In this document: piece after piece, positions 1 through 58,586 of the stretch | How the letters are laid out: every line of letters begins with the position of its first letter | How positions within the stretch are numbered: the first letter of the stretch is position 1 | Assembly (NCBI RefSeq): GCF_000242435.1 | Contig: NZ_JH591187.1 | Span: 805,512-869,511 of the forward strand | Source: Dialister succinatiphilus YIT 11850 | Lineage (GTDB): Bacteria > Bacillota > Negativicutes > Veillonellales > Dialisteraceae | DNA: 64,000 nucleotides | Direction of reading: 5' to 3' | Translations under genes and position numbers: made by a program | The notes under the pieces: model-generated | Databases searched by the model: none | What the model saw: the letters and a program-made list of their open reading frames with translations, nothing else | What the model was told of the DNA's origin: nothing

Positions 1-403
1 GCTGCGCCGGACTTCTCCACGGGAAAGCGTGTCACACGATTCTCAGGTCGCTTCGCTTCCTTACGAATCGTGTTCCCTTGCCACCCCTATTCAGGGGGCA
101 GAATAAAGCTCTGAAAAGCAGTTCTTTCATAAGCAGCTCACAGCATAGCGGAGCTTTATAGTGCCCCCTGAACAGGGGGAAAGGTGGTGGCGCCAGCCAC
201 CAAAGGGGGAATGCATTTCCTCGCCCGCAGGGCGGTTGTTAAGGTTTTATACAAACTGGCGCCTTCTATAATTTAGAGGCGCCCTACAACAACCCTCGCG
301 CCAAAGGCGCGTCAAACTTAAGCCCCTTAAGAACCTTCGGCCCGAAGGGCCGTCAACCCTCAAGCCCCATAGGGGCTTGCCCATAAAGCGCCGCAGGCGT
401 GTC
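1..403. repeat. Modular palindromic repeat array A
   Basis: Non-coding stretch downstream of the thioredoxin gene, made of modules found elsewhere in the window. Positions 20-84 are an inverted-orientation copy of a roughly 65-bp hairpin module that recurs at 19862, 20173 and 20373. Positions 181-209 hold the stem GGTGGTGGCGCCAGCCACC followed by AAAGGGGG, shared with 26650. Positions 243-263 share a GGTTTTATACAAACTGGCGCC-type string with 26740. Positions 310-360 are an inverted copy of the TTCTTAAG/GAGGGTT hairpin unit. Both orientations occur in one array. No open frame here resembles a protein. Confidence 0.75.
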
Positions 404-727
404 CTATTTCATCATTTTAGCTATATCTTCAAAAAATTTATTCTTCTGACGATAGCCGATGATTCTTCCCAGTTCTTTTCCGTCTTTATAGAAAATGAAG
501 GTGGGAATCCCCTCCGGGGCAAAGCGGGCTGCCAGGTCTTCTGCTTCATCTACATCGATGTGGCAGAGGCGGACTTCTCCCTTGAATTCTTCTTCCACTC
601 CCTTGAATGCAGGGGCCATGACCTGACAGGGGCGGCACCAGGAAGCGCCCAGTTCCAGAAGAACAAAGCCTTTTTTGTCTATGAATTCTTTATCCAGGTC
701 AGCGTCATTTCTAATTTCTGTGATCAT
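404..727 (-). CDS. Thioredoxin-family protein
   Basis: Small cytoplasmic thiol-disulfide oxidoreductase of 107 residues, the usual thioredoxin length. The redox motif is WCRPC (Cys31, Cys34) rather than the common WCGPC, so the residue before the conserved proline is arginine. The cis-proline loop GIPT (Pro75) and the following FYKDGKE strand-turn are present. It starts 10 bp downstream of the RNase E/G stop codon and is the last gene of the long cluster that begins at mreB. In related genomes ribosomal protein genes rplU and rpmA often follow the RNase gene; here thioredoxin and then a repeat array follow instead. The arginine in the active site may shift redox potential, but substrates are unknown. 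Confidence 0.9.
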   Translation of the reverse strand: MITEIRNDADLDKEFIDKKGFVLLELGASWCRPCQVMAPAFKGVEEEFKGEVRLCHIDVDEAEDLAARFAPEGIPTFIFYKDGKELGRIIGYRQKNKFFEDIAKMMK

Positions 728-5880: not shown

Positions 5881-6744
5881 TCATCTCCTCCGCCGCCACT
5901 TATAAGCGCTGCTGGAAGAGTGCCAGGAAAGACCGGCCCTTTCAGTTCTCTTATTTCTATCATTTTCTCTTTCTGTTTCTTCCTCATTCTCCCTGTCCGA
6001 AAGACGCAGGGAACTCAACCACCGGGCAGCGGGAATATCCTTATCCTTCAGAAGGCAGCGGAGCACATCATAGAGGGCGCGGCCATAGGCACTCTTTTCC
6101 CTGAATTCCGCAATCTCTCCCCTGTTTCCCAGGCGGTCTGCCATGATGGAATAGGGAATCACTCCGCCGAAGGATTCTTCGTCCAGCGTATCATAGACTT
6201 CCTGGAAAGAAAGTCCGCTTCCTTCCTTTGCGGTGAAACGGTTCAGTACGTATTTCCAGATCTTTCCCTTTCCGATAAGAGGCAGCAGGCGGTCCGCATT
6301 CCTTCTGGAAGACCAGGACGGCGCCACCAGAAGAATCACCCTGTCTGACAGGCGGAACGCCGTTTCCACACCCTTTCCCATACCCGCAGGGCAGTCGATG
6401 AATATGAAGTCATAAAGGCGGTGGATATCGTCCATCACCGTGTCCATGGCTGCAGGAAATACGGTTTCCCAGGATTCCTTCTGGGACGCCGGCAGGAAAT
6501 CGAGATGGTCCGTCACCGGAAGCACCGCATCCTCCAGGAAGCATTTTCCCTCTGCCAGGTCGCAGATATTATAAAAGCAGTCATTTTCCAATCCCAGTAT
6601 AAGATCCATGTTTCGAAGACCCATATCACCGTCTATGAGAAGTACCTTCTTCCCCAGCCTGGAAAGAGTGATGCCAAGAGAAGCAGTAATCAGGGTCTTT
6701 CCTACCCCGCCTTTGCCGGAAGCTGTAGACACAATGACTGCCAT
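5881..6744 (-). CDS. minD: Septum-site ATPase MinD (orphan)
   Basis: ParA/MinD-type ATPase, 287 residues. The deviant Walker A is GKGGVGKT near the N-terminus, and the MinD-specific stretch GDMGLRNMDLILGLEN follows. LPASQ and DCPAGMGKG are the further switch motifs. MinD normally recruits MinC to block division away from mid-cell and binds membrane through a C-terminal amphipathic helix. Here the segment IPAARWLSSLRLSD could be that helix, and about 30 mostly charged residues ending in WRRRR follow it, an odd tail. The start overlaps the PBP2 stop by one base, and rodA begins 6 bp after the end. No minC or minE gene is present at this locus. Confidence 0.88.
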   Translation of the reverse strand: MAVIVSTASGKGGVGKTLITASLGITLSRLGKKVLLIDGDMGLRNMDLILGLENDCFYNICDLAEGKCFLEDAVLPVTDHLDFLPASQKESWETVFPAAMDTVMDDIHRLYDFIFIDCPAGMGKGVETAFRLSDRVILLVAPSWSSRRNADRLLPLIGKGKIWKYVLNRFTAKEGSGLSFQEVYDTLDEESFGGVIPYSIMADRLGNRGEIAEFREKSAYGRALYDVLRCLLKDKDIPAARWLSSLRLSDRENEEETERENDRNKRTERAGLSWHSSSSAYKWRRRR

Positions 6745-19265: not shown

Positions 19266-19796
19266 AGAGTTCATTGGCCCCCTTTGCGCTGAGGGCTGCG
19301 CCTTTGCATCAAAAGGATGCGGCTTCGCCGCAGATTATGGTAAGCTGCCAGCTGCTATAACCTGCGGCCGCTCCGCGTCCCCCACCACAAAGAACCCCGG
19401 TACCTTCCCATCCCCTATGCCCAATGAGTTCGGTGTCTGCATGGTCTACGGCCGCTGCTGTACCGAAGTACGACGGCGCGCGCCATACACGAGTCTCCCG
19501 TCATTTCTGCATATGTGGAGCTGATTTAGAGTCCTGGGTTCATTGTGTAGTTCATATCTTTTATCCTTTTTTGCCAAATTGGATGGAAGGAAACAAGGGG
19601 ATCCCCGCGTGTCTGAAATACCCTTCCCTGCCGGACCTAGGATTGGCAGGAAAGCCTGTGCCTTCAGAATTGCTTTATAAACTTGTTCCTTCTACTAATA
19701 TAATAGAAAAAATCGCTTTTATGTGAACGTGGAAAATAAAAAAATTAATTTTTTCTTCATTTTACGGAATATGCAAAAGAAATGCAATCATCAATT
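19266..19796. other. Intergenic stretch with decayed repeat pieces
   Basis: About 530 bases without a recognisable gene. The part near 19310-19370 has GCGGCTTCGCCGCAGAT and a following GGTAAGCTG-type spacing that also occurs at 22074-22120, so at least this part is a diverged piece of the modular repeat family. 19680-19796 is AT-rich. A few short frames exist but none reads like a protein. Confidence 0.5.
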
Positions 19797-20500
19797 GGAC
19801 ACACCTGCGGTGTGAGGGTACAGAGGGTTCGCCCCTCACTCTTATTGTCCCACCGCTTGCGGTGGCAAGGGAACTGGATTCGCAAGGAGCCGTAGGCAAC
19901 TGAGAATCCAGTGACACGCTTCCCAGCGGGGCGGGAAGGTGGTACGCAGTACCAAAGGGGGCCGAGACCGCCGGTCTCAGAAGGTTCAGAGGGAAAGGTT
20001 CTTAAGATGGATGGGCCTTCGGCCCAAGGGTTCTTAAGTTTGACGGGGCCTTTGGCCCCGAGGGTTGTGGATTGCCCTGCGGGCAATGCTTATAAAGTCA
20101 GCGTTACGGGATTGGCTGTCTGTGTCATATGTAACACAATATCCAGTGCCACCTATTTTCTCGTTTCCCCTTGAGGTGGCAAAGGAACTGGATTTGTAAG
20201 AGAGCGAAGCGACCTGAAAATCCAGTGACATGCTTCCCACCGGGGCGAAGTCCCGCGAAGCGGGAAAGGGTGTACGGGGCAGAGCACCGATAGGATGCTC
20301 CATCGCGGTCCTGACCGCCAATCGGCGGCCCCCTGAGCAAAGCGATGCATAGCAAACACATTTTGCACTAGCGAACTGGATTTGTAAAGGAGCATCAGCG
20401 ACCTGAAAATCCGGTGAGTCAGTGACAGCAGCGGTTGATGGAGCGCTAGCGACGCGCAAAATGTGTTCGCTGTGCACGCCGTCAGGCGACGGAGGAACAG
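19797..20500. repeat. Modular palindromic repeat array B
   Basis: Longest continuous array of the repeat family. It opens with the cap GGACACACC-loop-GGTGTGAGGGT (19797-19820). Three copies of a hairpin module with GAACTGGATT...AATCC(A/G)GTGA occur at 19862-19925, 20173-20239 and 20373-20418. The GGTGG...CCACC-like unit at 19936-19965 reads GGTGGTACGCAGTACC, with both stem sides changed relative to array A. The TTCTTAAG/GAGGGTT hairpin pair is at 19996-20068 and the ATTGCCC...GGGCAAT plus GCTTATAAAGTCAGCG unit at 20070-20115. A large inverted repeat spans 20344-20479. Confidence 0.75.
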
Positions 20501-21945: not shown

Positions 21946-21982
21946 TTTATCACCTGATTGTTTGGATAAATAACGTATTCAT

Positions 21983-22279
21983 GGACACCTCTTTGATGTG
22001 AGGGTTCTTAAGATTGACCGGCCGTTGGCCGAAGGGTTCGTAAGTTTGACGGCCTTTCAGGCCGAGGGTTGCGGTAGCGGCTTCGCCGCAGATAAAAAAG
22101 GTTAAGGCTGGTGCCGCAGGTTGTGTAGAAGGGTTGTGTGATCGCCATGGGGCCACTCTGTGGCCCGGGTCCAGAAGGTTCCAAGGGTAGGTGCCTGCTC
22201 CGCCCTTGCACACGCCTGCGGCGTGAAGTTCTTAAGATTGACCGGCCTCACGGCTGGAGGGTTCGTAAGTTTGACGGCC
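21983..22279. repeat. Modular palindromic repeat array C
   Basis: Fills the gap between rseP and ispG. A diverged cap (GGACACCTCTTTGATGTGAGGGT) is at 21983-22005. TTCTTAAG/GAGGGTT hairpin pairs lie at 22001-22070 and again at 22226-22279. The second pair is cut in the middle of its last hairpin, and the next base begins the rseP stop codon (TAA, 22280-22282). GCGGCTTCGCCGC (22077-22090) is a further perfect palindrome. The array lies inside what is otherwise one operon. Confidence 0.75.
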
Positions 22280-23305
22280 TTATTTCATCAGTCCCTGAAT
22301 ATCATTGCTCATGGCGAAGAGGAAGAGTCCCAGAAGAATGGTGACTCCTACGGCCTGTATGTAGTAGAGCGCTTTTTCCGGAAGTTCTCTTCCGCTCACG
22401 CCCTCGATAAGAGTCAGGATGAGGACGCCTCCGTCCAGAAGGGGTATGGGGAGAAGGTTCAGGAAGCCCAGGTTCAGGCTGAGGAGGGCGATGAAGAGAA
22501 GGAGGGAGAGAAAGCCGGTGTCAGCTACCTGGGCGCTCATGCGGGCGACGCCGATGGGGCCGGCTACGTCTGCTTCGTGGCCGGAAATCATATCGACGAG
22601 ACCGGTGACCATCATTTTAAGTAGGAAGAGGCAGCGCTCTCCGCCCATAAGGAAGGCCTCTCCCAAGCCTACGTCATGGTGTTCCAGGTAGGGAGAAATG
22701 CCGATGATGGGCCGACCATTGTCACCGTCTGTCATCATGATGGTGAGGGTTTTCTCTTCTCCTTCATGGCTCACGGTGACGGGGACGATACGGGTGTCCA
22801 GGGTTTTTGTGATTTTTCCGATGTCCGTCCAGGTATCCACTTTCCGGCCGGCCACGGTGAGGATGGTATCCCCCTTCTCTATGCCCTGCTTTTCTGCAGA
22901 GGTGCCGGAGAGGACGCCGCCTACGACGGGAAGGTCCGGGAATGTCTGATATCCTGCGTAGAGAAAGGCGCCAGCAAAGATGAAAAAGGCAAGAAGCACA
23001 TTAAAAACGGAGCCTGCCGCAATGACAAGCAGTCTGGCCCAGACGGGACGGTTCACGAAGGCCCGGGGGTCATCGTTTTTATCACTGCTGTCCATGCCGG
23101 CGATGCGGTTGAATCCTCCCAGGGGGATGGACCGAAGGGAATAAAGGGTTTCTCCCCTTTTTATACCGCCCAGTTTGGGTCCAAAGCCTACGGCAAATTC
23201 TTCTACTTTCATGCCGGTGAACTTGGCCATCAGGAAATGGCCGCCTTCATGGATAAGGACGATCACTGCAAAAACGAAAATGGGAGCCAGAATATTGACT
23301 AACAT
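22280..23305 (-). CDS. rseP: Site-2 zinc metalloprotease RseP
   Basis: Intramembrane protease of 341 residues. The zinc motif HEGGH lies in the first helix (VLIHEGGHFLMAK) and the third ligand in NLLPIPLLDGG near residue 280. One PDZ domain (about 110-185, GVLSGTSAEKQGIEKGDTI) sits between the membrane segments. It cleaves membrane-anchored anti-sigma factors and remnant signal peptides. The start overlaps the ispC stop by 7 bp. Its stop codon directly abuts repeat array C. Confidence 0.96.
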   Translation of the reverse strand: MLVNILAPIFVFAVIVLIHEGGHFLMAKFTGMKVEEFAVGFGPKLGGIKRGETLYSLRSIPLGGFNRIAGMDSSDKNDDPRAFVNRPVWARLLVIAAGSVFNVLLAFFIFAGAFLYAGYQTFPDLPVVGGVLSGTSAEKQGIEKGDTILTVAGRKVDTWTDIGKITKTLDTRIVPVTVSHEGEEKTLTIMMTDGDNGRPIIGISPYLEHHDVGLGEAFLMGGERCLFLLKMMVTGLVDMISGHEADVAGPIGVARMSAQVADTGFLSLLLFIALLSLNLGFLNLLPIPLLDGGVLILTLIEGVSGRELPEKALYYIQAVGVTILLGLFLFAMSNDIQGLMK

Positions 23306-25291: not shown

Positions 25292-26017
25292 CTAGTGATC
25301 CTTTTCCGTGAGACCGCCGAACCGGCGGTCCCTTCCGGTGTACCAGTCCACAGCCTTTTCAAGCTCTTCTTTTGTGAAATCGGGCCACAGCACGGGAGTA
25401 AAATAGAGCTCGCTGTAGGAAGCCTGCCAGAGAAGAAAATTGGAAATACGGGACTCCCCGCCTGTGCGGATGAGAAGATCCACATCCATGGCATCGGAGG
25501 GATAGAGATGGGCTTTCACCGTATCTTCAGAAATAGTAGAAGGATCAATCTCTCCCCTCTCTACTTTTTCGGCTATTTCACGCATAGCATGGACAATTTC
25601 CATACGGCCGCCGTAATTGATGGCCACATTGAGCACCATGCCGTCATTTTTGGCCGTGTCCCGCTCGCACTCTGCAATGCCCTTCCGAAGGCCTTCGGAA
25701 AGGACGGACGTATCGCCCACAATGTGGACCTGCACATTGTCCTCCACCAGCTCTTTCAACTGGGAAATCAGATAATTTTTAAAAAGCTTCATCAGGAAGC
25801 GTACTTCCAGAGACGGTCTTTTCCAGTTCTCCGTAGAGAAGGCGTAGAGAGTGAGCACCTTGATCCCCATATGTCCGGCAGCCCGTACAATGGTCTTCAC
25901 ATTGGCGGCACCTACCTGGTGCCCGTAAGTTCTCTCCCGGCCTCTCTCTCTGGCCCACCGGCCATTGCCATCCAGAATGATGGCCACATGTTCAGGAAAT
26001 GCCTTTTTATCAGACAT
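25292..26017 (-). CDS. uppS: Isoprenyl transferase (undecaprenyl diphosphate synthase)
   Basis: Cis-prenyltransferase, 241 residues, that adds isopentenyl units to farnesyl diphosphate to build the C55 lipid carrier. Visible motifs are ILDGNGRWA with the catalytic aspartate, the YAFSTENWKRP segment and the C-terminal DLLIRTGGESRISNFLLWQ. It heads the uppS-cdsA-ispC-rseP run. Array D lies directly upstream and separates it from frr, with which it is contiguous in many Firmicutes. Confidence 0.96.
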   Translation of the reverse strand: MSDKKAFPEHVAIILDGNGRWARERGRERTYGHQVGAANVKTIVRAAGHMGIKVLTLYAFSTENWKRPSLEVRFLMKLFKNYLISQLKELVEDNVQVHIVGDTSVLSEGLRKGIAECERDTAKNDGMVLNVAINYGGRMEIVHAMREIAEKVERGEIDPSTISEDTVKAHLYPSDAMDVDLLIRTGGESRISNFLLWQASYSELYFTPVLWPDFTKEELEKAVDWYTGRDRRFGGLTEKDH

Positions 26018-26057
26018 ATATCATTCCTCGTTTCAGGATACAAAGATTTAATTGCTT

Positions 26058-26905
26058 GGACACACCTTCGGTGTGAGGGTTGACGGGCCTACGGCCCGAG
26101 GGTTGTGGCCGCCTGACGGCGGCGGGTTGTGTTCGCTTTCGCTCAGGGGGCAACGGCCTTTCAGGCCGAGGGTTGTGGATAGCCGCTTTTGGCGGCTATG
26201 CTTATGAAGTCAGCGTTATGAGGGAAGGTTCTTAAGATGGACCGGACCTATGGGCCGGAGGGTTCTTAAGTTTGACGGCCTTTCGGCCGAGGGTTGCGGA
26301 TTGCCCTTCGGTGCACAGCGAACACATTTTGAAGGAGCGCTAGCGACGCGCAAAATGTAGTGAGTCGTTTCCCCTTTAGGGGGCAATGCTTATAAAATCA
26401 GCGTTACGGGATTGTCGTTATGGGTCATATAGCTTGATACGCATTCTGCTGACTGGCTCGCTGCGCTCGCCTCCCCCTATCCGGCTTCGCCAGACTTCCC
26501 CCGCAGTTCGGTCGGTCAATCGAAAGGAAGGCCCTTTTATGGGCAGGCTAAGGGCCTACTTTGACCGACTTGCACATCCTATGCAGGATGTGCACAGAGG
26601 CAGAATAAAGCTAACGCATAGCGAAGAATAAAGTCCCCCCGCCGGGGGGAAGGTGGTGGCGCCAGCCACCAAAAGGGGTGCATTTCCGACGCCCGCAGGG
26701 CGGTTGTATGGTTTTCACAGCCCACCGGGTCACTACCGCGGTTTTATACAAACTGGCGCCATCTATTTAAGGGCCTGCCACAACCCTCATAGCCACAGGC
26801 CCCTCTAGGAATACGGGAAAGCATGCCCCGATCCCGGCCGCCACCAGCTCACAGGCTAAAACAGTTACATCATAAGAGGGCGCCTTTTATGATGTAAAGG
26901 CGCCC
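26058..26905. repeat. Modular palindromic repeat array D
   Basis: Roughly 850 bases between frr and uppS composed almost entirely of hairpin modules. Cap at 26058-26080; GAGGGTT hairpins at 26080-26175; an AT(A)GCC/GGC(T)AT unit with GCTTATGAAGTCAGCG at 26176-26215; the TTCTTAAG pair at 26225-26298; a second ATTGCCC...GGGCAAT unit (26298-26395) whose loop holds another palindrome; ACTTTGACCGACTTG plus stem at 26558-26595; the GGTGGTGGCGCC unit at 26650-26677 and the ATACAAACTGGCGCC string at 26740-26761, both shared with array A. A possible pseudoknot lies at 26865-26905. Confidence 0.8.
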
Positions 26906-26956
26906 AATTATAACCCTTTCAGGGAAAATCCTCTCAGCCCTGCCCGTGAAGAGGTC

Positions 26957-27514
26957 TCAAACGGACATGATTTCTTTGATTTTTCTTTCGGTCACTGCTT
27001 CTACTTCTTTAATCTTCTTGTCAGTGAGCTTCTGAATTTTGTCTTCCGTATCTTTGATGATGTCTTTGGACACGTCGCTGTTCTTTTCTTCTTTTTTGAG
27101 GAATACGTTGCCGTCGCGGCGGATGTTGCGGACTGCGACTTTGGCTTCTTCCGATTTCTTATTGACCACTTTTACCAGTTCTTTACGTCTTTCTTCTGTG
27201 AGCTGGGGAATGGCCATGCGGATGAGGTTTCCATCGTTCATGGGAACCAGGCCCAGGTCGGACTGGAGGATGGCTTTTTCAATTTCTTTCAACAGAGATT
27301 TATCCCAGGGCTGCACTACCAGCATCCTGGCTTCCGGTACGGTAACGGAGGCTACCTGGGTCACCGGGGTGCGGCTGCCATAATATTCTACGAAAATTCG
27401 GTCCAGCAGGCTGGCATTGGCCTGGCCTGTACGGATGGAGGTAAATTCGCTCTTCAGGGCGTTGATGGACTTGTCCATTTTTTCGGATAAGGTTTTCAGT
27501 TCGTCTTCGTACAT
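26957..27514 (-). CDS. frr: Ribosome recycling factor
   Basis: Cytoplasmic factor that, with EF-G, splits post-termination ribosomes. It is 185 residues, exactly the usual length. The sequence has the three-helix-bundle pattern with SIRTGQANASLLDRI, the conserved VTVPEARMLVVQPWD and IRMAIPQLTEERRKELVK. It starts 2 bp after pyrH, the common gene pair. No classical terminator follows; the stop lies next to array D, whose hairpins might serve instead. Confidence 0.97.
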   Translation of the reverse strand: MYEDELKTLSEKMDKSINALKSEFTSIRTGQANASLLDRIFVEYYGSRTPVTQVASVTVPEARMLVVQPWDKSLLKEIEKAILQSDLGLVPMNDGNLIRMAIPQLTEERRKELVKVVNKKSEEAKVAVRNIRRDGNVFLKKEEKNSDVSKDIIKDTEDKIQKLTDKKIKEVEAVTERKIKEIMSV

Positions 27515-30340: not shown

Positions 30341-30499
30341 GGAAGCGCTGATTAAATCATTGTTTGCTTTTATTCTTGAATTTTTATGCAATGTGAGGAA
30401 TGGGCTGACGCGAATAGCGAGCTATTTAAGGAAGCCCATGACGAAACAGTGCATAAAAATTCTTATAAAAGAAAACTCTATGAATTAATCAGTGCTTCC
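30341..30499. mobile_element. 159-bp palindromic MITE-like element
   Basis: Inverted arms run from GGAAGCGCTGATTAA (30341) to TTAATCAGTGCTTCC (ending 30499); the 50-nt arms agree at roughly 80% and finish in a perfect 13-bp inner match, 30378-30390 with 30450-30462. The centre holds smaller nested palindromes (TGGGCT/AGCCCA, AATAGC/GCTATT). A 4-bp direct repeat, CTAT, flanks it (30337-30340 and 30500-30503). No transposase is encoded. The right-hand CTAT supplies the stop codon region of the acyltransferase gene. I saw no second copy in this window. Confidence 0.65.
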
Positions 30500-31627
30500 C
30501 TATATAAGGCGGGCAAAGTAAGGTATCTTCTTCAGTCCCCAGGTAATCACAACGCCCAGAGCATAAGCCATGGAAATCCAGATGACCGCATCAATGAAAG
30601 GAATACGATACATATATTTCAAAAGAATATGGGTGTAAATTACGTGGGTCAGATTTCTTGTAATTTCTTCAAACAGCATGACGCCGAAAGACATGCTGCC
30701 AAAGAATACCAGCGCCTTCCCCGCCTTTTCCGACACATGATGAGTGCTGAACCACCAGCGGCAGGTGCAGAAGACAAAAGCGGTATTCAAAAAGAGGAAG
30801 GAATCGTAGAACCGTTCGGAAATGGCCTCGGTCATTCCCCCCGCTGCGATGCCGTGGTACCAGGTCATGGCGCCGGCGGCTGCGGTACCGAGGAGAGCAG
30901 CGATTCCCAGTTTCACCAGATTCCTTTTCGTCAGCCAGCTCTGGGGCAGCACGTTTTCAATCCAGTAGCCCATGAGGAAGTAAAAAGTAGGCTCGCTCAC
31001 CGCCAGGAGAGGATTCAGGAAATAATTCATTTCCGCGCTCCCCTTGAAAATGAGGAAAGACACCATGGGCATCACACCCACAAAGAACAGGTTCAGACCG
31101 ATGAGGTACAGATAAAGCTTCTCATCCAGTACTTTCACCAGCTTCCTCCAGATGGGAAGCATGAGGAGGAAAGAAATATAGATATATAGGAAATAGTAGG
31201 CCGTAGCCAGGTCCGACGTGTAGAGAAGCGTAAAGAACTTGGCTATGTGTCCGGGAATGGACAGGGGCAGGTTATGGTAGAACCACACATAGTTAATCAG
31301 GGAAAATACAAAAATCACCTGCAGGAACCGCCATATCCTCTTCTTCCAGATGGTAGAGATAGGCTCCTCTTTTCCCAGAAGAAGGGCGCCGGAAATCATA
31401 AAGAAAATGGGCACCGCCGTCTTCACCCAGAAAGGCACAGCCAGATAGAGAGGATAGAAAAATGAAGCGGGCCTCTCAATATATAAAGAAAAGCCGGCAG
31501 TCGATGTATGGGTAAACATAACCAGCCAGATGCAGAGGGCTCGAAGAAATTCAATATGAAGTTTCTTTTTCTTTCTGCCGGCAGAAACTGTTTTTTCTGT
31601 ATTCAATAGGATACCTTCTTTCTGCAT
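30500..31627 (-). CDS. Acyltransferase family 3 membrane protein
   Basis: Polytopic membrane protein of about 375 residues with roughly ten hydrophobic helices, of the OafA/WecH type that O-acetylates sugars or cell-wall polymers. The key histidine lies in WLVMFTHTS after LHIEFLRALC; VPIFFMISGALLLGKEEP is the second conserved block. Start choice is uncertain: ATG at 31627 has only a close AAGG, while TTG at 31606 has AAGAAGG 7 nt upstream. The reading frame stays open further into repeat array E, but that extension is repeat sequence and is rejected. The TAG stop touches the MITE-like element. Substrate unknown. Confidence 0.82.
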   Translation of the reverse strand: MQKEGILLNTEKTVSAGRKKKKLHIEFLRALCIWLVMFTHTSTAGFSLYIERPASFFYPLYLAVPFWVKTAVPIFFMISGALLLGKEEPISTIWKKRIWRFLQVIFVFSLINYVWFYHNLPLSIPGHIAKFFTLLYTSDLATAYYFLYIYISFLLMLPIWRKLVKVLDEKLYLYLIGLNLFFVGVMPMVSFLIFKGSAEMNYFLNPLLAVSEPTFYFLMGYWIENVLPQSWLTKRNLVKLGIAALLGTAAAGAMTWYHGIAAGGMTEAISERFYDSFLFLNTAFVFCTCRWWFSTHHVSEKAGKALVFFGSMSFGVMLFEEITRNLTHVIYTHILLKYMYRIPFIDAVIWISMAYALGVVITWGLKKIPYFARLI

Positions 31628-31631
31628 CGCC

Positions 31632-31905
31632 TTTGCGGGCGATGAGGGTTCTTTGGATGGATAGGCTTTTGGGACCCGGGGTTCAAGGGTTAGACAACCC
31701 CCTGGGCCGAGGGTTGTGGTGGCGGCTTCGCCTTTGGACACACCTTCGGTGTGAGGGTTCAAAAGGTTCAGAGGGTGGTGGTATCGCCCTCTCGGGCGAT
31801 GAGTATTATAATGCCGCCTTTCGGCGGTCACGTCCACATCGAGTATCATAATCATTCTGTGAGGGCCAACTTTGCCCGACTTGGAATTCTACGCAGAATT
31901 GCCAC
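31632..31905. repeat. Modular palindromic repeat array E
   Basis: Lies just upstream of the acyltransferase gene. It contains GATGAGGGTTCTTTGGATGG near 31650, a perfect cap GGACACACCTTCGGTGTGAGGGT at 31736-31759, small perfect hairpins (ATCGCCCTCTCGGGCGAT, GCCGCCTTTCGGCGGT) at 31783-31830, and an ACTTTGCCCGACTTG plus stem unit at 31868-31902 whose stem differs on both sides from the copy at 26558. The remaining bases to 32129 show no gene. Confidence 0.7.
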
Positions 31906-32129: not shown

Positions 32130-35126
32130 CTACTGCCCTACCTGCTCGATCTGTCCGGCAGACAGATGGATGAACTCTCCTGTTCCCTTCTCATATCCTA
32201 CTTCTTCTGCAATGTGCATGGTTCTTTCATGGCAGGTGAAGAGGAAGATCTGCTGTTTTTTGCCCAGATCCATGAGGAAGCGGAGGGTTTCGCGCTGCCG
32301 TTTTTCATCGAAGCGGACAAAGATATCGTCCAGAACGATGGGCAGCGGTTCAATGTGCTCTCCAAAGGAGAGAGCCATGGCCAGGCGGATGGCAAGATAA
32401 ACCTGGTCTCCGGTGCCGGAGGACCAGATTTTTTCTGTCTTTACGCCGTGCATGCTGTCTTCGATATAAATGTCCTTTCCGTTGTCGGAAATATGAAGGG
32501 CATATTTCCCCATGGTCATGTCTTTCAGGAATTCGTTGGCCATTTTCATGATTTCCGGCTGCCGGCCCGATTCGTAAATGGACTGGGCCCGGGTCAGAAG
32601 TTCTTCAGTATACATGAGGGTGAGCCATTCTTCCAGAGCCGACTGCAGTTCTGCTTCGATTTTTTCTTTTTTCTGCAGCGCTGCGGTCATGGAATCGTCT
32701 CCTGCCAGACGGAAAATTTCGTTGTCAATGGCACCCTGGCTTCTCTGGAGTTCGCCCAGTTCTTTTGTTTCTTCTTCTACTTTTCTGGAAAGTTCGTTAT
32801 GTTTTTCCATCCACTGGTCGTACTGGCCTGTTTCCAGGGCATGCCAAAGGGTTTCGAATTCTTCTTCCCCGCCAGCATACATACGGAGGTCCTGTTTCAC
32901 TCTTTCCCATTCCTTGGCAATCTGGTCATGGTGTTCGTGGGCGTTCACTTTTTCTGCAAATTCTTCCGCGTTTCTGGCGTGGACCAGGTTCAGCAGTGTA
33001 TCCATTTCACGCTGGCAGGAGGCCCAGCCTTCGTCCAGTTTGGTCATTTCCTTTTCGTAGGCGGCGTGCTGGTTGTTCTTTTCCTGCAGCGCTTCCCACT
33101 CCAGGCTTCGGCGGTGGTTTTCTTCGTAAATGTCGGCTATGCTGTCGGGATTGACGGCATAGGGAAGTTTCGTGGCAGCGATGATGGACTGGGCCCTTTC
33201 AGCAAAGGCGTCAAGTTTGGCATCGATCTGTTCCAGCCGAAGGTCCATGATTTTCCCTTTCCCTTCGGCAGAGTAAATTTTCTGCCACTGTTCCTGGAGA
33301 GCAGACAGGTTTTCCGCTCCCGTCCGGGGAAGGCTGTTTTCAGAAAGCCAGTTATTCCAGGCTTTTTCGGCCTTATCCCTTTTTTCTGTAAGGATGCTGC
33401 CCTCTTCTTCCCAGTTTTTATGCTGCTGTTCCTGTTTCCGAATGGTTTCCTTTTTCCAGGAAATGGCCTGTCTTTTGGCCTGATCCTTGTAGAAGCCGGA
33501 TCGTTTTTCCTGCATGAGATTGTGGAAGGCCTTGAGTTCATCCACTGTTTTCGGCGCCTGACCGGGGAATTTTTCGCTAATCTGTTTGCGGGATGCTTCC
33601 AGTTCGTCTTTCCGGGCAGCCAGTTTTTCCAGGGTATTTCCTTTTTTATGGACCACATGGCTGTGGAGAACGTAGAAAAGGATGGCCAGGATGGCGGCAC
33701 CGGCAGAACCGTACATAGCAGCCACTCCGGCTCTGGCGGTGTAGAAGGCGGCAATGCCTGCGGCCGCTGCCAGAAGGAGCACAAGGCTCATCCACAGCCA
33801 GGGCGTATATTTCTTATCTTCTCTGCCGCTGATATCATCTATTTCGGACTGTATGTCCGCTTCCTCGTGGAGCACCTGTTCCAGTTCAGCAGCCATGGAT
33901 TCGATGTTCTGCCAGTCCGACTCCGATTCTTCCTGTTTTGGAAGGACCAGGTCGTCCGAGAGTTTTTCCACTTCCGGTTCCCGCTGCTCCCAGAAATGGA
34001 GTTCATTGTTCCGGACGCCCAGGCTGCCGGCAAGGCGGCGTCCTTCTTCCCAGTCCACGCTGGCGCAGGGTTTGTCCAAACTTAAAGGGCGGTCCCAGAG
34101 GGGAAGGGAATAGCCTAGATTGACGAAATCCATGCGCCAGTCTGCTTTTTCCTTTTCCATGTTTTCCGCATCTGAAAGGGTCTGCCGCCACTGGCCCAGG
34201 TCCACATACAGCTTTTCCAGTTCGTTTTCCACGCCCATCCAGGGGATGATTTCCTCTTTCTTTACGGGCTTGTAGGCGTCCAGTTTTTCCTGGAGCGATT
34301 CCTTCTGGTCATGGATGACCTTCATGCGGTTCATGAGCTGGTTCCACTGTTCCTTACCGTTGGAAGGGAACATGGTGACCTGGGAAGACAGGTCCAGCTG
34401 GTGTTTCACACTCACTGCCTGCTGGTAGTATTTCCAGGCGCCCAGCCTTTTTTCCAGGCGGTCGTTTTCTTCGTTGTCCCTGTCCAGCTGCTGCTTGAGG
34501 GCAGAAGCCTGCTTTTTCATTTCCTCCTGCCTGCGCTGGAGGTCGGAAAATTCCTTTTCCTGATTGGACAGGCCGTCCAGTTCTTTTTCCGCTTCTTCCA
34601 AATCGGCGGCCAGCTGGTTGATTTTCCGCTTTCCCTGGGGGCTTCCTGAAAAGAGTTTGGCCTTTTCTTCTTCCAGTTCCGCCTTGGCCGCTGCCAGCTT
34701 GTCGCCGCCCTGAAGCATAAAGAAACGGCTTCTCACACGATCATTGGCCAGAAAATTGGCTCCCTGCAGGTCTTCCAGGCCTACGGCGAAAATTTTTTCA
34801 TAAATGGACCGGTTAAGACCATGCCACCAGGCAGCAGGCAGGTCTTCCGTAAATTTCACATGGTTTGCGTTTTCAAACCACTGCTCTTTTTCATTACGGT
34901 ATACCCGATAAGTCTGGCCATCGGAGCGGATGAATCCCATATTTCCTTTCCGTCCCTGCCATTTGCCCCGGCCATAGCCGAAGAGCATGTCCCGGATGAA
35001 ACGGAGCATGGTGGTCTTACCGCTTTCGTTCTCCCCCATCACAATGTTAAGAGAGGTTTGGGAAGGCTGCCAGGAGGCATCGTGGTAAATGCCGTACTGC
35101 TGGAGCTGGAGATCGGTAATCTTCAT
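32130..35126 (-). CDS. yhaN: YhaN-type AAA ATPase (SbcC/Rad50-like)
   Basis: Large SMC-like ATPase of 998 residues. Walker A GENESGKTT (31-39) and the C-terminal LPIVLDDIFVRFD Walker B with a preceding signature SSGTGDQVYLAIR form the split head; two long coiled coils fill the middle. Where Rad50 has a zinc hook, this protein has two hydrophobic helices (about 442-462 and 467-489) and no CxxC, so the coil tip is probably in the membrane. YhaN is known from B. subtilis beside the nuclease YhaO. The start overlaps yhaO by 4 bp. A role in DNA end processing at the membrane is inferred; experimental function is poorly known. Confidence 0.88.
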   Translation of the reverse strand: MKITDLQLQQYGIYHDASWQPSQTSLNIVMGENESGKTTMLRFIRDMLFGYGRGKWQGRKGNMGFIRSDGQTYRVYRNEKEQWFENANHVKFTEDLPAAWWHGLNRSIYEKIFAVGLEDLQGANFLANDRVRSRFFMLQGGDKLAAAKAELEEEKAKLFSGSPQGKRKINQLAADLEEAEKELDGLSNQEKEFSDLQRRQEEMKKQASALKQQLDRDNEENDRLEKRLGAWKYYQQAVSVKHQLDLSSQVTMFPSNGKEQWNQLMNRMKVIHDQKESLQEKLDAYKPVKKEEIIPWMGVENELEKLYVDLGQWRQTLSDAENMEKEKADWRMDFVNLGYSLPLWDRPLSLDKPCASVDWEEGRRLAGSLGVRNNELHFWEQREPEVEKLSDDLVLPKQEESESDWQNIESMAAELEQVLHEEADIQSEIDDISGREDKKYTPWLWMSLVLLLAAAAGIAAFYTARAGVAAMYGSAGAAILAILFYVLHSHVVHKKGNTLEKLAARKDELEASRKQISEKFPGQAPKTVDELKAFHNLMQEKRSGFYKDQAKRQAISWKKETIRKQEQQHKNWEEEGSILTEKRDKAEKAWNNWLSENSLPRTGAENLSALQEQWQKIYSAEGKGKIMDLRLEQIDAKLDAFAERAQSIIAATKLPYAVNPDSIADIYEENHRRSLEWEALQEKNNQHAAYEKEMTKLDEGWASCQREMDTLLNLVHARNAEEFAEKVNAHEHHDQIAKEWERVKQDLRMYAGGEEEFETLWHALETGQYDQWMEKHNELSRKVEEETKELGELQRSQGAIDNEIFRLAGDDSMTAALQKKEKIEAELQSALEEWLTLMYTEELLTRAQSIYESGRQPEIMKMANEFLKDMTMGKYALHISDNGKDIYIEDSMHGVKTEKIWSSGTGDQVYLAIRLAMALSFGEHIEPLPIVLDDIFVRFDEKRQRETLRFLMDLGKKQQIFLFTCHERTMHIAEEVGYEKGTGEFIHLSAGQIEQVGQ

Positions 35127-36391
35127 TTTTCCTCCTCTTTCGTCAGCATTTCCGCTCCCAAAAGTTCTGCTTTCCGGAAGGACCGGAGCAGACTCTCGTC
35201 GGGAAGGGAATGGAGCAGTTTTTTATATTTCACAAATTCCGGCTGGCTTTCCGCCATGGTCCGGAGTTCTTCCTTTTTCTTGTCCACCGGAAGGTCATTC
35301 AAAGCATCGTAGGCTTTGAGGAAATTGCCGGTCACATCAGGCAGTTCCCTTCGCTCCTTCAGATCGATAGACGTGCGGGTCCGATCTTCCAGGCGCACGA
35401 ACCAGGCGAAGAGATACCGGAACTGTTCTTTGTCGTTCAGGGACTGAAGAATGAAATCCCTGCCGTCCTCGCTGGAGAGTACGGCATGAAGAGGGCCGCT
35501 GCCGGTGCACACCAGACGGATGATATTAGGCCTACCTGTCAGTTCCTTCAAACCGCTCCGCCTTTTCGTCACCGCGGAAATCAGCTCTTCTGTCTGGGAA
35601 TAGGCAGAAATATCCATAGTCATATCCATCCAGCGGATGGTGTCGGTTTCAATAAACTTCAAAGTCACCGTACCATAGGCCCCTACATCCACCAGATAGC
35701 AGCCCCTGGGTCCGATTTCCCGAAGGGACAGGCCCTGGGTATTTCCGGGATACACAATGTAGGGAGAAGTGGAAACAGTCTTTCTTGTATGCACATGACC
35801 CAGAGCCCAGTAATCCATGCCTACTGCCTTCAGGTCATCCGCCGTACAGGGCGCATAGGGTGAATCAGCGCCGCCCATGTCGGTATGCAGCATGCCGATG
35901 GCAAAGCCGTCATCCTTTTCCCGATGAAACTCTTTGGCCAGATTTTCCTTCACATGCCGGGTTTTATAGGAAATCCCATAAATAGTGGCTGCCTTCTCCC
36001 CATCCTTCATCAGGGGAATGGAAGTCACCTGATCAGCCGGAAAAATATGGACTGTTTCCGGCAGCGGAATGTCCGCGCGCCAGGCTTCGCCGGGATCATG
36101 GTTCCCGTGGACCATAAAAATTTCAATGCCTCCCTGGGCTGCCCGGTACAGTTCCCGGGCAAAGGCCATCTGGGCGGACAAGCTGTGGTGATCCCCGTTG
36201 TACACGTCGCCGGATATGAGAATGGCATCCACACGGTTCTCCAGCGCTGCATCCACCACTTTTTCAAAGGCTTTAAACGTAGCCTTTCCTATCTGTTCAT
36301 TCCAGGGACCGCTGCTTCCCATGCGGATATCGCGGAACGGTTCTCCCAGATGAAGATCAGCACAATGGATAAAAGAAAAATGTTTACCCAT
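35123..36391 (-). CDS. yhaO: YhaO-type metallophosphoesterase (SbcD/Mre11-like)
   Basis: Calcineurin-like phosphoesterase of 422 residues, partner of YhaN. Metal-binding motifs are in order: DLHLG near residue 13, SGDVYNGD, the catalytic VHGNHDPGE and GHVHTRK. The C-terminal 200 residues form the capping and partner-binding part and are poorly conserved. By analogy with SbcCD the pair would cut DNA ends or hairpins in an ATP-controlled way. That matters here because the genome is full of perfect palindromes, the classical substrates of SbcCD. No yhaM follows. Confidence 0.9.
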   Translation of the reverse strand: MGKHFSFIHCADLHLGEPFRDIRMGSSGPWNEQIGKATFKAFEKVVDAALENRVDAILISGDVYNGDHHSLSAQMAFARELYRAAQGGIEIFMVHGNHDPGEAWRADIPLPETVHIFPADQVTSIPLMKDGEKAATIYGISYKTRHVKENLAKEFHREKDDGFAIGMLHTDMGGADSPYAPCTADDLKAVGMDYWALGHVHTRKTVSTSPYIVYPGNTQGLSLREIGPRGCYLVDVGAYGTVTLKFIETDTIRWMDMTMDISAYSQTEELISAVTKRRSGLKELTGRPNIIRLVCTGSGPLHAVLSSEDGRDFILQSLNDKEQFRYLFAWFVRLEDRTRTSIDLKERRELPDVTGNFLKAYDALNDLPVDKKKEELRTMAESQPEFVKYKKLLHSLPDESLLRSFRKAELLGAEMLTKEEEK

Positions 36392-36439
36392 AAGTCCTCC
36401 TTGTATATGTCTCTGGAGTTTCCAGACTCTAGTTTAAAA

Positions 36440-36760
36440 GGTAAGGTTCTTAAGATGGACCGGCCCTTTGGTCCCGAAAGTTCAAAGGATTCAGAGGGTG
36501 GTGGCGGCTCCGCCGCCAGTTTTGTCGGGGCGCTCTCTTCCTCCGTTTTGCCTGCCCCCTTTCGGGGTAAACGCAGCAAGACGGAAGGGGCGGCCACATG
36601 CATCAATTCATGGTGAGGCTTAGCTGCAGGCTCATATTGCGCCCGCTCTGCGGCCCCCCTTACTAGTATTAGCACAGGAACGAGCACGGGAACGATAAAA
36701 CCCGGGCGCCCCAAAGCGCCCCCTTTCGCATGCGAAAATACTGACACCCGCCGCAATGAA
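36440..36760. repeat. Diverged modular repeat array G
   Basis: Between yhaO and the alaS operon end. AAGGTTCTTAAGATGGACC plus a GGCCC/GGTCC-type hairpin at 36443-36478 match the units of arrays B and D. GGTGGCGGCTCCGCCGCC (36499-36516) is a further hairpin. Beyond 36550 the likeness fades, with smaller palindromes such as CGGGCGCCCC and TTTCGCATGCGAAA. No gene is seen in this 440-base gap. Confidence 0.6.
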
Positions 36761-58360: not shown

Positions 58361-58586
58361 AAAAAAGCCGCCAAGAATATCTTGACGGCTTCATTGTTAT
58401 TAGCCCCACCATGTCGTTTATTGCCGTATTTTGAGTCTGCATAATTGCAGGTGGGTGTTCTTGAGACAAGGTTTCTTGAACAGTCCCCGTACGGGGCATT
58501 GACTCACCTCATCAGCGCTGAACTCCCGTTATAAAGGTGTTGGTTCAAAATAAGAAGGCACGACGTGCACAGCAGGGTTTCCTTTA
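58361..58586 (-). ncRNA. ssrS: 6S RNA
   Basis: Regulatory RNA that mimics an open promoter and binds sigma-70-type RNA polymerase. On the minus strand a closing stem CCCTGCTGTG (58568-58577) pairs over ten positions with CATGGTGGGG (58404-58413), counting G-U pairs. The middle is a large, weakly paired bubble flanked by further helices such as GTGCC/GGCAA. A terminator hairpin, AAGCCGTCAAG/CTTGGCGGCTT with a T run (58361-58391), ends the transcript. A strong promoter precedes it. Position between aspS and rarA matches the B. subtilis 6S-1 locus. Exact ends are predicted only. Confidence 0.85.

Follow-up and report, generated by a model that had tools for sequence, protein, structure and literature searches.

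The gap between uppS and frr, in the 64 kb stretch of DNA analysed here (the window), is filled by a string of hairpin modules with fixed linkers between them, and the question that it raises is what kind of DNA this is and what keeps the two arms of each stem matched. As described below, arrays of this kind are carried by the genome of the window, that of a gut bacterium in which such intergenic clusters number in the hundreds, and by that of a sister species (G005). The evidence points to mobile DNA of a family not described before, which would spread at the replication fork and for which no transposase of the type usual for hairpin DNA was found.

Organization of the arrays in the window

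The uppS-frr array (Table 1) runs in the order TTGGACACACC-TTC-GGTGTGAGGGTT, GAC-GGGCC..GGCCC-GAGGGTT, GTGGCCGCC..GGCGGC-GGGTTGTG, AAGGTTCTTAAGATGGA-stem-AGGGTT, CTTAAGTTTGAC-stem-GAGGGTT, GYGG-stem-GCTTATAAARTCAGCG and core TTACGGGATT, followed by more hairpins and, last and near frr, a GGCGCC palindrome. An earlier note on this DNA had placed the array at 26058-26905, which is roughly correct; the true extent is 26056 to about 26911, and the modules, linkers and paired stems were found at the coordinates that it gave. The ATTGCCC/GGGCAAT stem that it described is a real hairpin, but is split at 26312-26382 by a nested element. With DNA folding parameters, the first 355 bases of the array are more stable than 100 of 100 dinucleotide shuffles (z = -4.6).

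Four linkers had been regarded as fixed. Three of them recur in the window, namely TTCTTAAG (ten copies) and GAGGGTT (20), both counted on both strands, and GCTTATAAAGTCAGCG (one exact copy and two with one changed base), but AAAGGGG is unspecific, with 19 window matches, many of which are within genes. The statement that the arrays all lie between genes holds generally; the exception is an array at 31703-31858 that shares 152 nt with a long ORF call (30500-31855). The start of this ORF is possibly mis-set.

We note that a gene pair encoding SMC/SbcC-like (998 aa) and Mre11/SbcD-like (422 aa) proteins adjoins arrays (window 32130-36391), with scores below the NCBIfam cut-offs. DNA hairpins are substrates cut by SbcCD-type nucleases, and this pair may be of relevance to a palindrome-rich genome.

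Table 1. Arrays, modules of the uppS-frr array and reference features. Coordinates are those of the window unless a contig or sampled locus is named.
Feature	Position	Strand	Remarks
Array with class II modules	1-404		
Array	19794-20480	+	
Array	21981-22281	+	
uppS	25292-26017	-	Left neighbour of the array
uppS-frr array, whole	26056-26911 (about)	+ (class I)	Against the inferred fork and against both flanking genes
Left-end hairpin GGACACACC-TTC-GGTGTGAGGGTT	26056-26081	+	Slot S1, 156 copies
GAC-GGGCC-TAC-GGCCC-GAGGGTT	26082-26104	+	Slot S2, 107 copies, 33 variants
GTGGCCGCC..GGCGGC-GGGTTGTG	26105-26131	+	
A-CGGCC-TTTCA-GGCCG-AGGGTT	26153-26174	+	Hairpin identical to that at 22049-22070
GTGG-ATAGCCGC..GGCGGCTAT-GCTTATGAAGTCAGCG	26175-26215	+	Slot S6
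AAGGTTCTTAAGATGGA-CCGGACC..GGGCCGG-AGGGTT	26225-26264	+	Slot S4; one mismatch in stem
CTTAAGTTTGA-CGGCC..GGCCG-AGGGTT	26265-26295	+	Slot S5, 173 copies, 53 variants
GCGG-ATTGCCCTTCGG..GCAAT-GCTTATAAAATCAGCG plus core TTACGGGATT	26296-26413	+	Interrupted by nested element
Nested 71-bp palindromic element	26312-26382	+	Seamless, within 3' arm of hairpin
TGGCTCGCTGCGCTCGCC..TATCCGGCTTCGCC	26454-26491	+	
Second, unpolarised repeat unit (CGGTCGGTCAATCGAAAGGAAGGCCC..)	26509-26594	+	5 with / 9 against fork
CCCCCCGCCGGGGGG-AAGGTGGTGGCGCCAGCCACCAAAAGGGGTGCATTTCC	26635-26687	+	Core 0 with / 46 against fork
GACGCCCGCAGGGCGGTTGTATGGTTTT	26688-26715	+	1 with / 50 against fork
Palindromes GGCGCC / AAAGGCGCC	26865-26911	+	Adjoin frr; also in G005
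frr	26957-27514	-	Right neighbour of the array
Array	31640-31858	+	Overlaps 5' part of an ORF call
Short partial array	36434-36520	+	
Gap of 39-59 bp in the sister	L152:3261-3307		
Gap of 39-59 bp in the sister	L152:6801-6860		
Gap of 39-59 bp in the sister	L161:7244-7283		
dnaA-dnaN-recF	C1:1,212,641-1,216,954		

Genome-wide scale and composite architecture

The repeated modular palindrome family is real and far larger than was reported from the window, with hundreds of module copies genome-wide. An exact match to the 17-base linker GGGTTCNTAAGNTTGAC occurs at 198 places in the 2.5 Mb genome, compared with 0 for the reversed pattern, and GTCAGCGTTACGG, with at most one mismatch, has 161 matches compared with 2 in the control; these counts exclude a chance origin of the modules. 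Regions of high-copy 13-mers cover 54.6 kb of 464 kb sampled, in stretches that were mostly picked at matches and are thus enriched, and 8.6% of a second sample of 220 kb at a slightly looser threshold. At roughly 9-12% of the sampled, array-enriched DNA, the arrays shape the intergenic sequence, the breaks of the draft assembly and possibly gene exchange. When genes are called by a simple ORF scorer, gene overlap is near zero for almost all of the merged repeat regions.

The arrays are typically 400-1300 bp in length and have a module order in common: class I modules, the GTCAGCGTTACGG core, a GGTGGTGGCGCCAGCCACC module and then inverted class II modules. In 25 arrays both ends can be recognized, and each of them is in turn a hairpin; the first letters are GACA.. 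(in three arrays GATA or GACG) and the last are ..TGTC. These TIR-like ends (GGACAMGCC..GGCKTGAGGGTT) give the 25 arrays the terminal inverted repeat (GGACAMGCC..TGTCC) expected of a MITE. Their flanks show no constant target and no visible duplication of constant length, the empty sites in the sister being too diverged for base-exact comparison. Chimeric joins were observed in hairpin loops (GGCC to TTGGACAC, TATCGCCC to TTGGACAC and GGCGCC to TTTGGACAC), and have TTGG in common with ordinary loops. We also note that a 16S-23S-5S rRNA operon (L048:6637-11578) has arrays on either side, and that short tandem octamer repeats of the CACTAGNN type adjoin an array at L039 (about 2690-2740) and are found at the matching place in the sister.

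Distribution and turnover among relatives

Among 60 relatives, the 17-mer GGGTTCNTAAGNTTGAC is found in G005 alone, apart from the genome of the window. The G005 contigs match the metagenome-assembled genome 'Dialister sp. UBA1703' (DCJJ01); in the contig scan with short patterns, chance matches are abundant outside DCJJ01. The UppS of G005 is 90% identical to that of the window, with a background identity of about 85% for the sister as a whole. The core GTCAGCGTTACGG has 116 matches in G005 and is at background level in four other genomes of the genus, so that the carriers are two of its six genomes. In a 220 kb sample of one of the others (G004) we found IS copies and no arrays, and the short gap between uppS and frr in G004 contains no modules.

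The earlier note had proposed that syntenic gaps be compared for gain of arrays as units, and the comparison with the sister species shows either presence and absence or altered contents. Three gaps that hold 0.4-1.4 kb of DNA with arrays in the genome of the window measure 39-59 bp in the sister (Table 1); these empty sites can be seen at the scale of the gap and not to the base, since the edges have diverged (about 85% identity). Other matching gaps hold an array in both species with unlike contents; in the orthologous uppS-frr gap the outer boundaries are the same and the inner modules are different. These comparisons indicate that gain and loss of arrays occur in large units, and that arrays are also rewritten in place. 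Separately, three blocks that are 97-98% identical between the two carriers, over the background of about 85%, end at arrays (L054:11405-15496, L036:7669-12218 and L040:24-1345); these could reflect recent gene exchange between arrays or merely conserved genes.

Complementarity of the stem arms

That the two sides of a stem change together from copy to copy, as had been claimed, is borne out in slots S2, S4 and S5 and in the GGAGCnnnGCGAC element. The pairing in slot S5 is 0.934, compared with 0.727 when the right arms are reshuffled inside each length class; the corresponding values are 0.935 and 0.728 for S2 and 0.907 and 0.810 for S4, and in all three slots the observed pairing exceeds 200 of 200 shuffles. 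Slots S1, S6 and TATCCGG show little or no excess over the largest shuffles because few arms vary there. In an ungapped alignment of 27 distinct S5 variants, 95.1% of cells are paired compared with 82.0% after shuffling, changes affect both sides in 18 cells and one side in one cell, the covariation score is 0.315 compared with 0.106, and slid structures drop to 21-42% paired. For the aligned arms 94-95% of cells are paired, compared with 82-84% when the 3' letters are reshuffled, and none of 500 shuffles is as high. The arms of the GGAGCnnnGCGAC element, in one context, include ACTGGATTC/GAATCCAGT, ACTTGATTC/GAATCAAGT, ACACGATTC/GAATCGTGT and ATGATTTG/CAAATCAT; five pairs have both arms changed, and no pair has a change in a single arm. 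These shuffle nulls ignore the kinship of copies and show that arms stay matched, not the number of independent events; the stem variants are mostly discrete alleles.

The stem mismatches comprise 13 G.T and 19 A.C, with no wobble preference for either strand. Together with the 18 to 1 excess of changes on both sides, this favours DNA hairpins or hairpin-templated copying over selection on an RNA strand. The earlier suggestion that folding, as RNA or as extruded DNA, is preserved by selection or by the copying process can thus be kept for DNA and copying but not visibly for a single RNA strand, and we infer that folding is held at the DNA level or that one arm templates the other. Regulatory structures selected as transcripts (terminators, attenuators or mRNA stabilizers) would also have paired stems and a stable fold, and the uppS-frr array would fall in the mRNA of these genes; the missing wobble asymmetry and an orientation that is independent of gene direction (see below) speak against such a role, as does Rfam, in which positions 26000-27000 have no match at E <= 1, and we regard it as the least probable of the explanations considered here. 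A known RNA family is rejected by the same search, in which the sole match elsewhere in the window is a 6S RNA gene (58399-58581, minus strand).

Orientation relative to replication

Of 74 sampled cores, 71 are oriented against the inferred fork and three with it, the fork direction having been taken from the dnaA position and coding GC skew in a draft assembly in which the implied arms are unequal and each flip lies within one contig. On the dnaA-bearing contig (C1), the minus strand carries the exact core motif at 25 of 27 sites below 0.68 Mb, the plus strand at 24 of 24 sites from 0.68 to 1.2126 Mb and the minus strand again at all three sites beyond, with a flip at dnaA; the coding GC skew switches sign near 0.64-0.69 Mb. 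The skew change (about 0.68 Mb) and oriC (1.2126 Mb) are only about 0.53 Mb apart in a 2.5 Mb genome, a spacing that would be explained by replication arms of unequal length or by a misjoin in the scaffold. In G005, 17 of 20 cores are against the fork when local skew is used as a crude proxy.

Classified by neighbouring genes, the numbers of cores against and with the fork are 37 and 3 where both genes are co-directional, 14 and 0 between convergent genes, 11 and 0 between divergent genes, and 9 and 0 where both genes are head-on. Core orientation therefore follows replication and not transcription, the head-on pairs ruling out the latter as the source of the polarity. The backbone modules are 84-100% polarised, with the exception of one weak linker at 13/17. 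Polarity is not a trait of just any repeat in this genome, since a nested element (9 with and 7 against the fork), its 73-bp relative (7 and 13) and a 159-bp MITE (3 and 4) are unpolarised.

A near-total polarity whatever the direction of the genes would also be expected if the arrays had a function, either in marking the polarity of the chromosome or as sites that a DNA-binding protein or a repair protein recognizes (in the manner of KOPS, Chi or BIME), and selection kept their orientation. Exact-match sites are indeed denser near dnaA, with 16 at 1.1-1.2 Mb of C1 compared with one per 100 kb at 0.6-0.9 Mb. However, chromosome-polarity signals are usually conserved and of short length, whereas the array composites are long and variable, occur in just two of six genomes of the genus and have been rewritten between these two, and we consider this explanation improbable.

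Nested and guest elements

The nested element has the form TGCACAGCGAAC-arm-GGAGCnnnAGCGAC-arm'-..TTTCCCCTTTAGGGG and is about 70 bp in length, some of its 22 copies being lengthened by internal additions. In most cases the copy lies within an array hairpin, in its 3' arm. For most copies, excision leaves no duplicated target and restores an intact module that is also present at other places in the sampled DNA; excising the 26312-26382 copy joins CCCTTCGG to GCAATGCT, a join which occurs eight times in the sampled DNA. The contexts are varied, comprising array modules of two kinds, several variants of the loop and one palindrome that is not part of an array; this points to insertion on repeated occasions and not to the copying of a single module that already carried the element. 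The orientation by replication, the seamless nested insertions and the limitation to two genomes were all missed by the first reading of this DNA.

Other repeats were also observed. A 73-bp palindromic unit (TGCATCCACTGCTGTCACTGACTCACTGGATTTTCAGG..) is present as about five head-to-tail copies within a nested element at L042 (about 6000-6500). A 159-bp MITE-like repeat with ends GGAAGCRCTGATTAA (window 30341-30499) has several more copies in the sampled stretches and is up to 98% identical in G005. The arrays are landing sites for a group II intron with a reverse transcriptase, three copies of which (L178, L179 and L180) each lie in an array directly after a palindrome (CCGGCGCAGCCGG, GCCACGAAGTGGC and CCCGCGAAGCGGG). 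These three copies are only guests in the arrays and G005 lacks the reverse transcriptase, which removes the intron from consideration as the driver.

Candidate enzymes and mode of spread

The Y1_Tnp domain (PF01797) has no match in the genome of the window (99.95% complete) or in G005 (94%), in a search that was positive in five control genomes and in G003. By profile search neither carrier has TnpB (PF07282), and IS110 (PF02371) and reverse transcriptase (PF00078) occur in the genome of the window but not in G005. None of RAYT/IS200, TnpB, IS110 or reverse transcriptase, the enzymes that the search covered, can therefore be the common driver. A phage or plasmid origin was also rejected, as no phage or plasmid record matches the modules and three motif matches in viral contigs are due to chance and lack array context. 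No named family with this modular build was known to the earlier note, and none was found in Rfam, in the phage and plasmid records or in the open-access literature; the latter, with most subscription journals outside its scope, contained no report of such repeats in Dialister.

In our view, the most consistent interpretation is that the arrays are a new family of mobile, non-autonomous palindromes resembling BIME and BOX elements, with fork-coupled insertion by a putative enzyme acting in trans and subsequent shuffling, to which we assign a probability of about 0.55. They would be lineage-specific mobile DNA consisting of chains of short DNA hairpins with TIR-like hairpin ends. A composite would enter an intergenic gap at the replication fork or just behind it, with its orientation fixed relative to the fork, for example as single-stranded hairpin DNA entering one template strand. 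Within existing arrays, modules would be shuffled, truncated and extended, and the second palindrome of about 70 bp would insert seamlessly in hairpin arms. The arms may stay complementary because the hairpin is the form that is recognized or copied; alternatively, one arm may serve as the template when the other is repaired. Hairpin ends, replication-dependent orientation and seamless nested insertion together recall single-strand transposition. Against fork-coupled insertion stand the facts that the carriers have no Y1, TnpB, IS110 or reverse transcriptase in common, that the target flanks are not constant, and that the fork direction is deduced from dnaA and skew in a draft with unequal arms.

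The chimeric loop joins, with TTGG in common with ordinary loops, are also compatible with a purely copying process, in which arrays grow and move by template switching during replication, or by microhomology-mediated copying from one array to another, at stalled hairpins; copying between like template strands would keep the orientation, and no integrating enzyme would be needed. Such a process would agree with the rewriting of arrays in place and with the lack of a candidate enzyme (Y1, TnpB, IS110 or reverse transcriptase) common to both carriers, yet the constant ends of 25 arrays and the seamless single-copy nested inserts resemble defined mobile units, and whole composites fill gaps whose counterparts in the sister measure 39-59 bp; we consider it unlikely on its own. 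A fuller scheme, in which mobile DNA without its own transposase spreads as hairpin composites by template switching at the fork or by a putative single-strand integrase, locked to the fork and with arms matched by hairpin-templated copying, is likewise considered unlikely.

The spread of mosaic palindromic repeats, a class of DNA known for decades, has mostly been inferred from RAYT cases. The present lineage lacks a RAYT and yet has large and recent composites by the hundreds; their orientation is tied almost perfectly to replication, and the unpolarised nested elements provide an internal control. Replication-coupled spread of hairpins, and DNA-level as opposed to RNA-level upkeep of stems, become directly testable here, as the genus has cultured members.

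Comparison with known systems

The arrays share with REP/BIME elements more than 100 palindromic units with linkers, intergenic mosaic clusters, complementary stem changes within families and a role as insertion hot spots (PMC2817692, PMC3733652). This likeness would be explained if they were REP/BIME elements moved by a RAYT (Y1 transposase), but no RAYT or Y1 gene is present in either carrier. REPs tagged with GTAG or CGTC have been reported from other phyla (PMC3733652, PMC2817692); no such tag was seen by eye beside the array stems, where the conserved slot flanks are TGAC/GGAC and GAGGGTT. Furthermore, the arrays are ordered composites of 0.4-1.3 kb with many module types, and whereas REP/BIME units alternate in orientation, the arrays keep one order that is locked to replication, with class I and class II ends mutually inverted. 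By the tests run the arrays are not REP/BIME, and movement by a RAYT is very improbable. REPINs and other small MITE-like repeats (PMC3116915) are similarly non-autonomous, palindromic, high in copy number and probably mobilized in trans; the array composites are much longer, with ordered modules, a second element nested in them and no RAYT.

Insertion of IS200/IS605 elements produces no target duplication, as seen here for the nested element. These elements also have hairpin ends and, like Tn7 insertion by TnsE, an orientation that follows replication (PMC5371812), as 71 of 74 array cores do, but the carriers of the arrays have neither TnpA (Y1) nor TnpB genes.

Hairpin repeats of organelles (sponge RHE, PMC2800124; Volvox palindromes, PMC2670323) resemble the arrays in that palindromes fill intergenic DNA, several element types occur and units are joined in tandem. 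They differ in that the host is an organelle. To our knowledge, neither replication polarity nor an ordered composite is known for them.

The BOX element of Streptococcus pneumoniae, boxA-boxB(n)-boxC, is likewise a modular, MITE-like intergenic composite with defined end modules and a length that varies between strains, and 60.8% of its copies have leading-strand placement (PMC3049150). In contrast, 96% of array cores point one way and, on comparison with the description of BOX only, the array modules are different and of far more types; the ends of BOX resemble the TIR of an IS, and no such IS was identified for the arrays. The arrays work like BIME or BOX, yet are assigned to neither.
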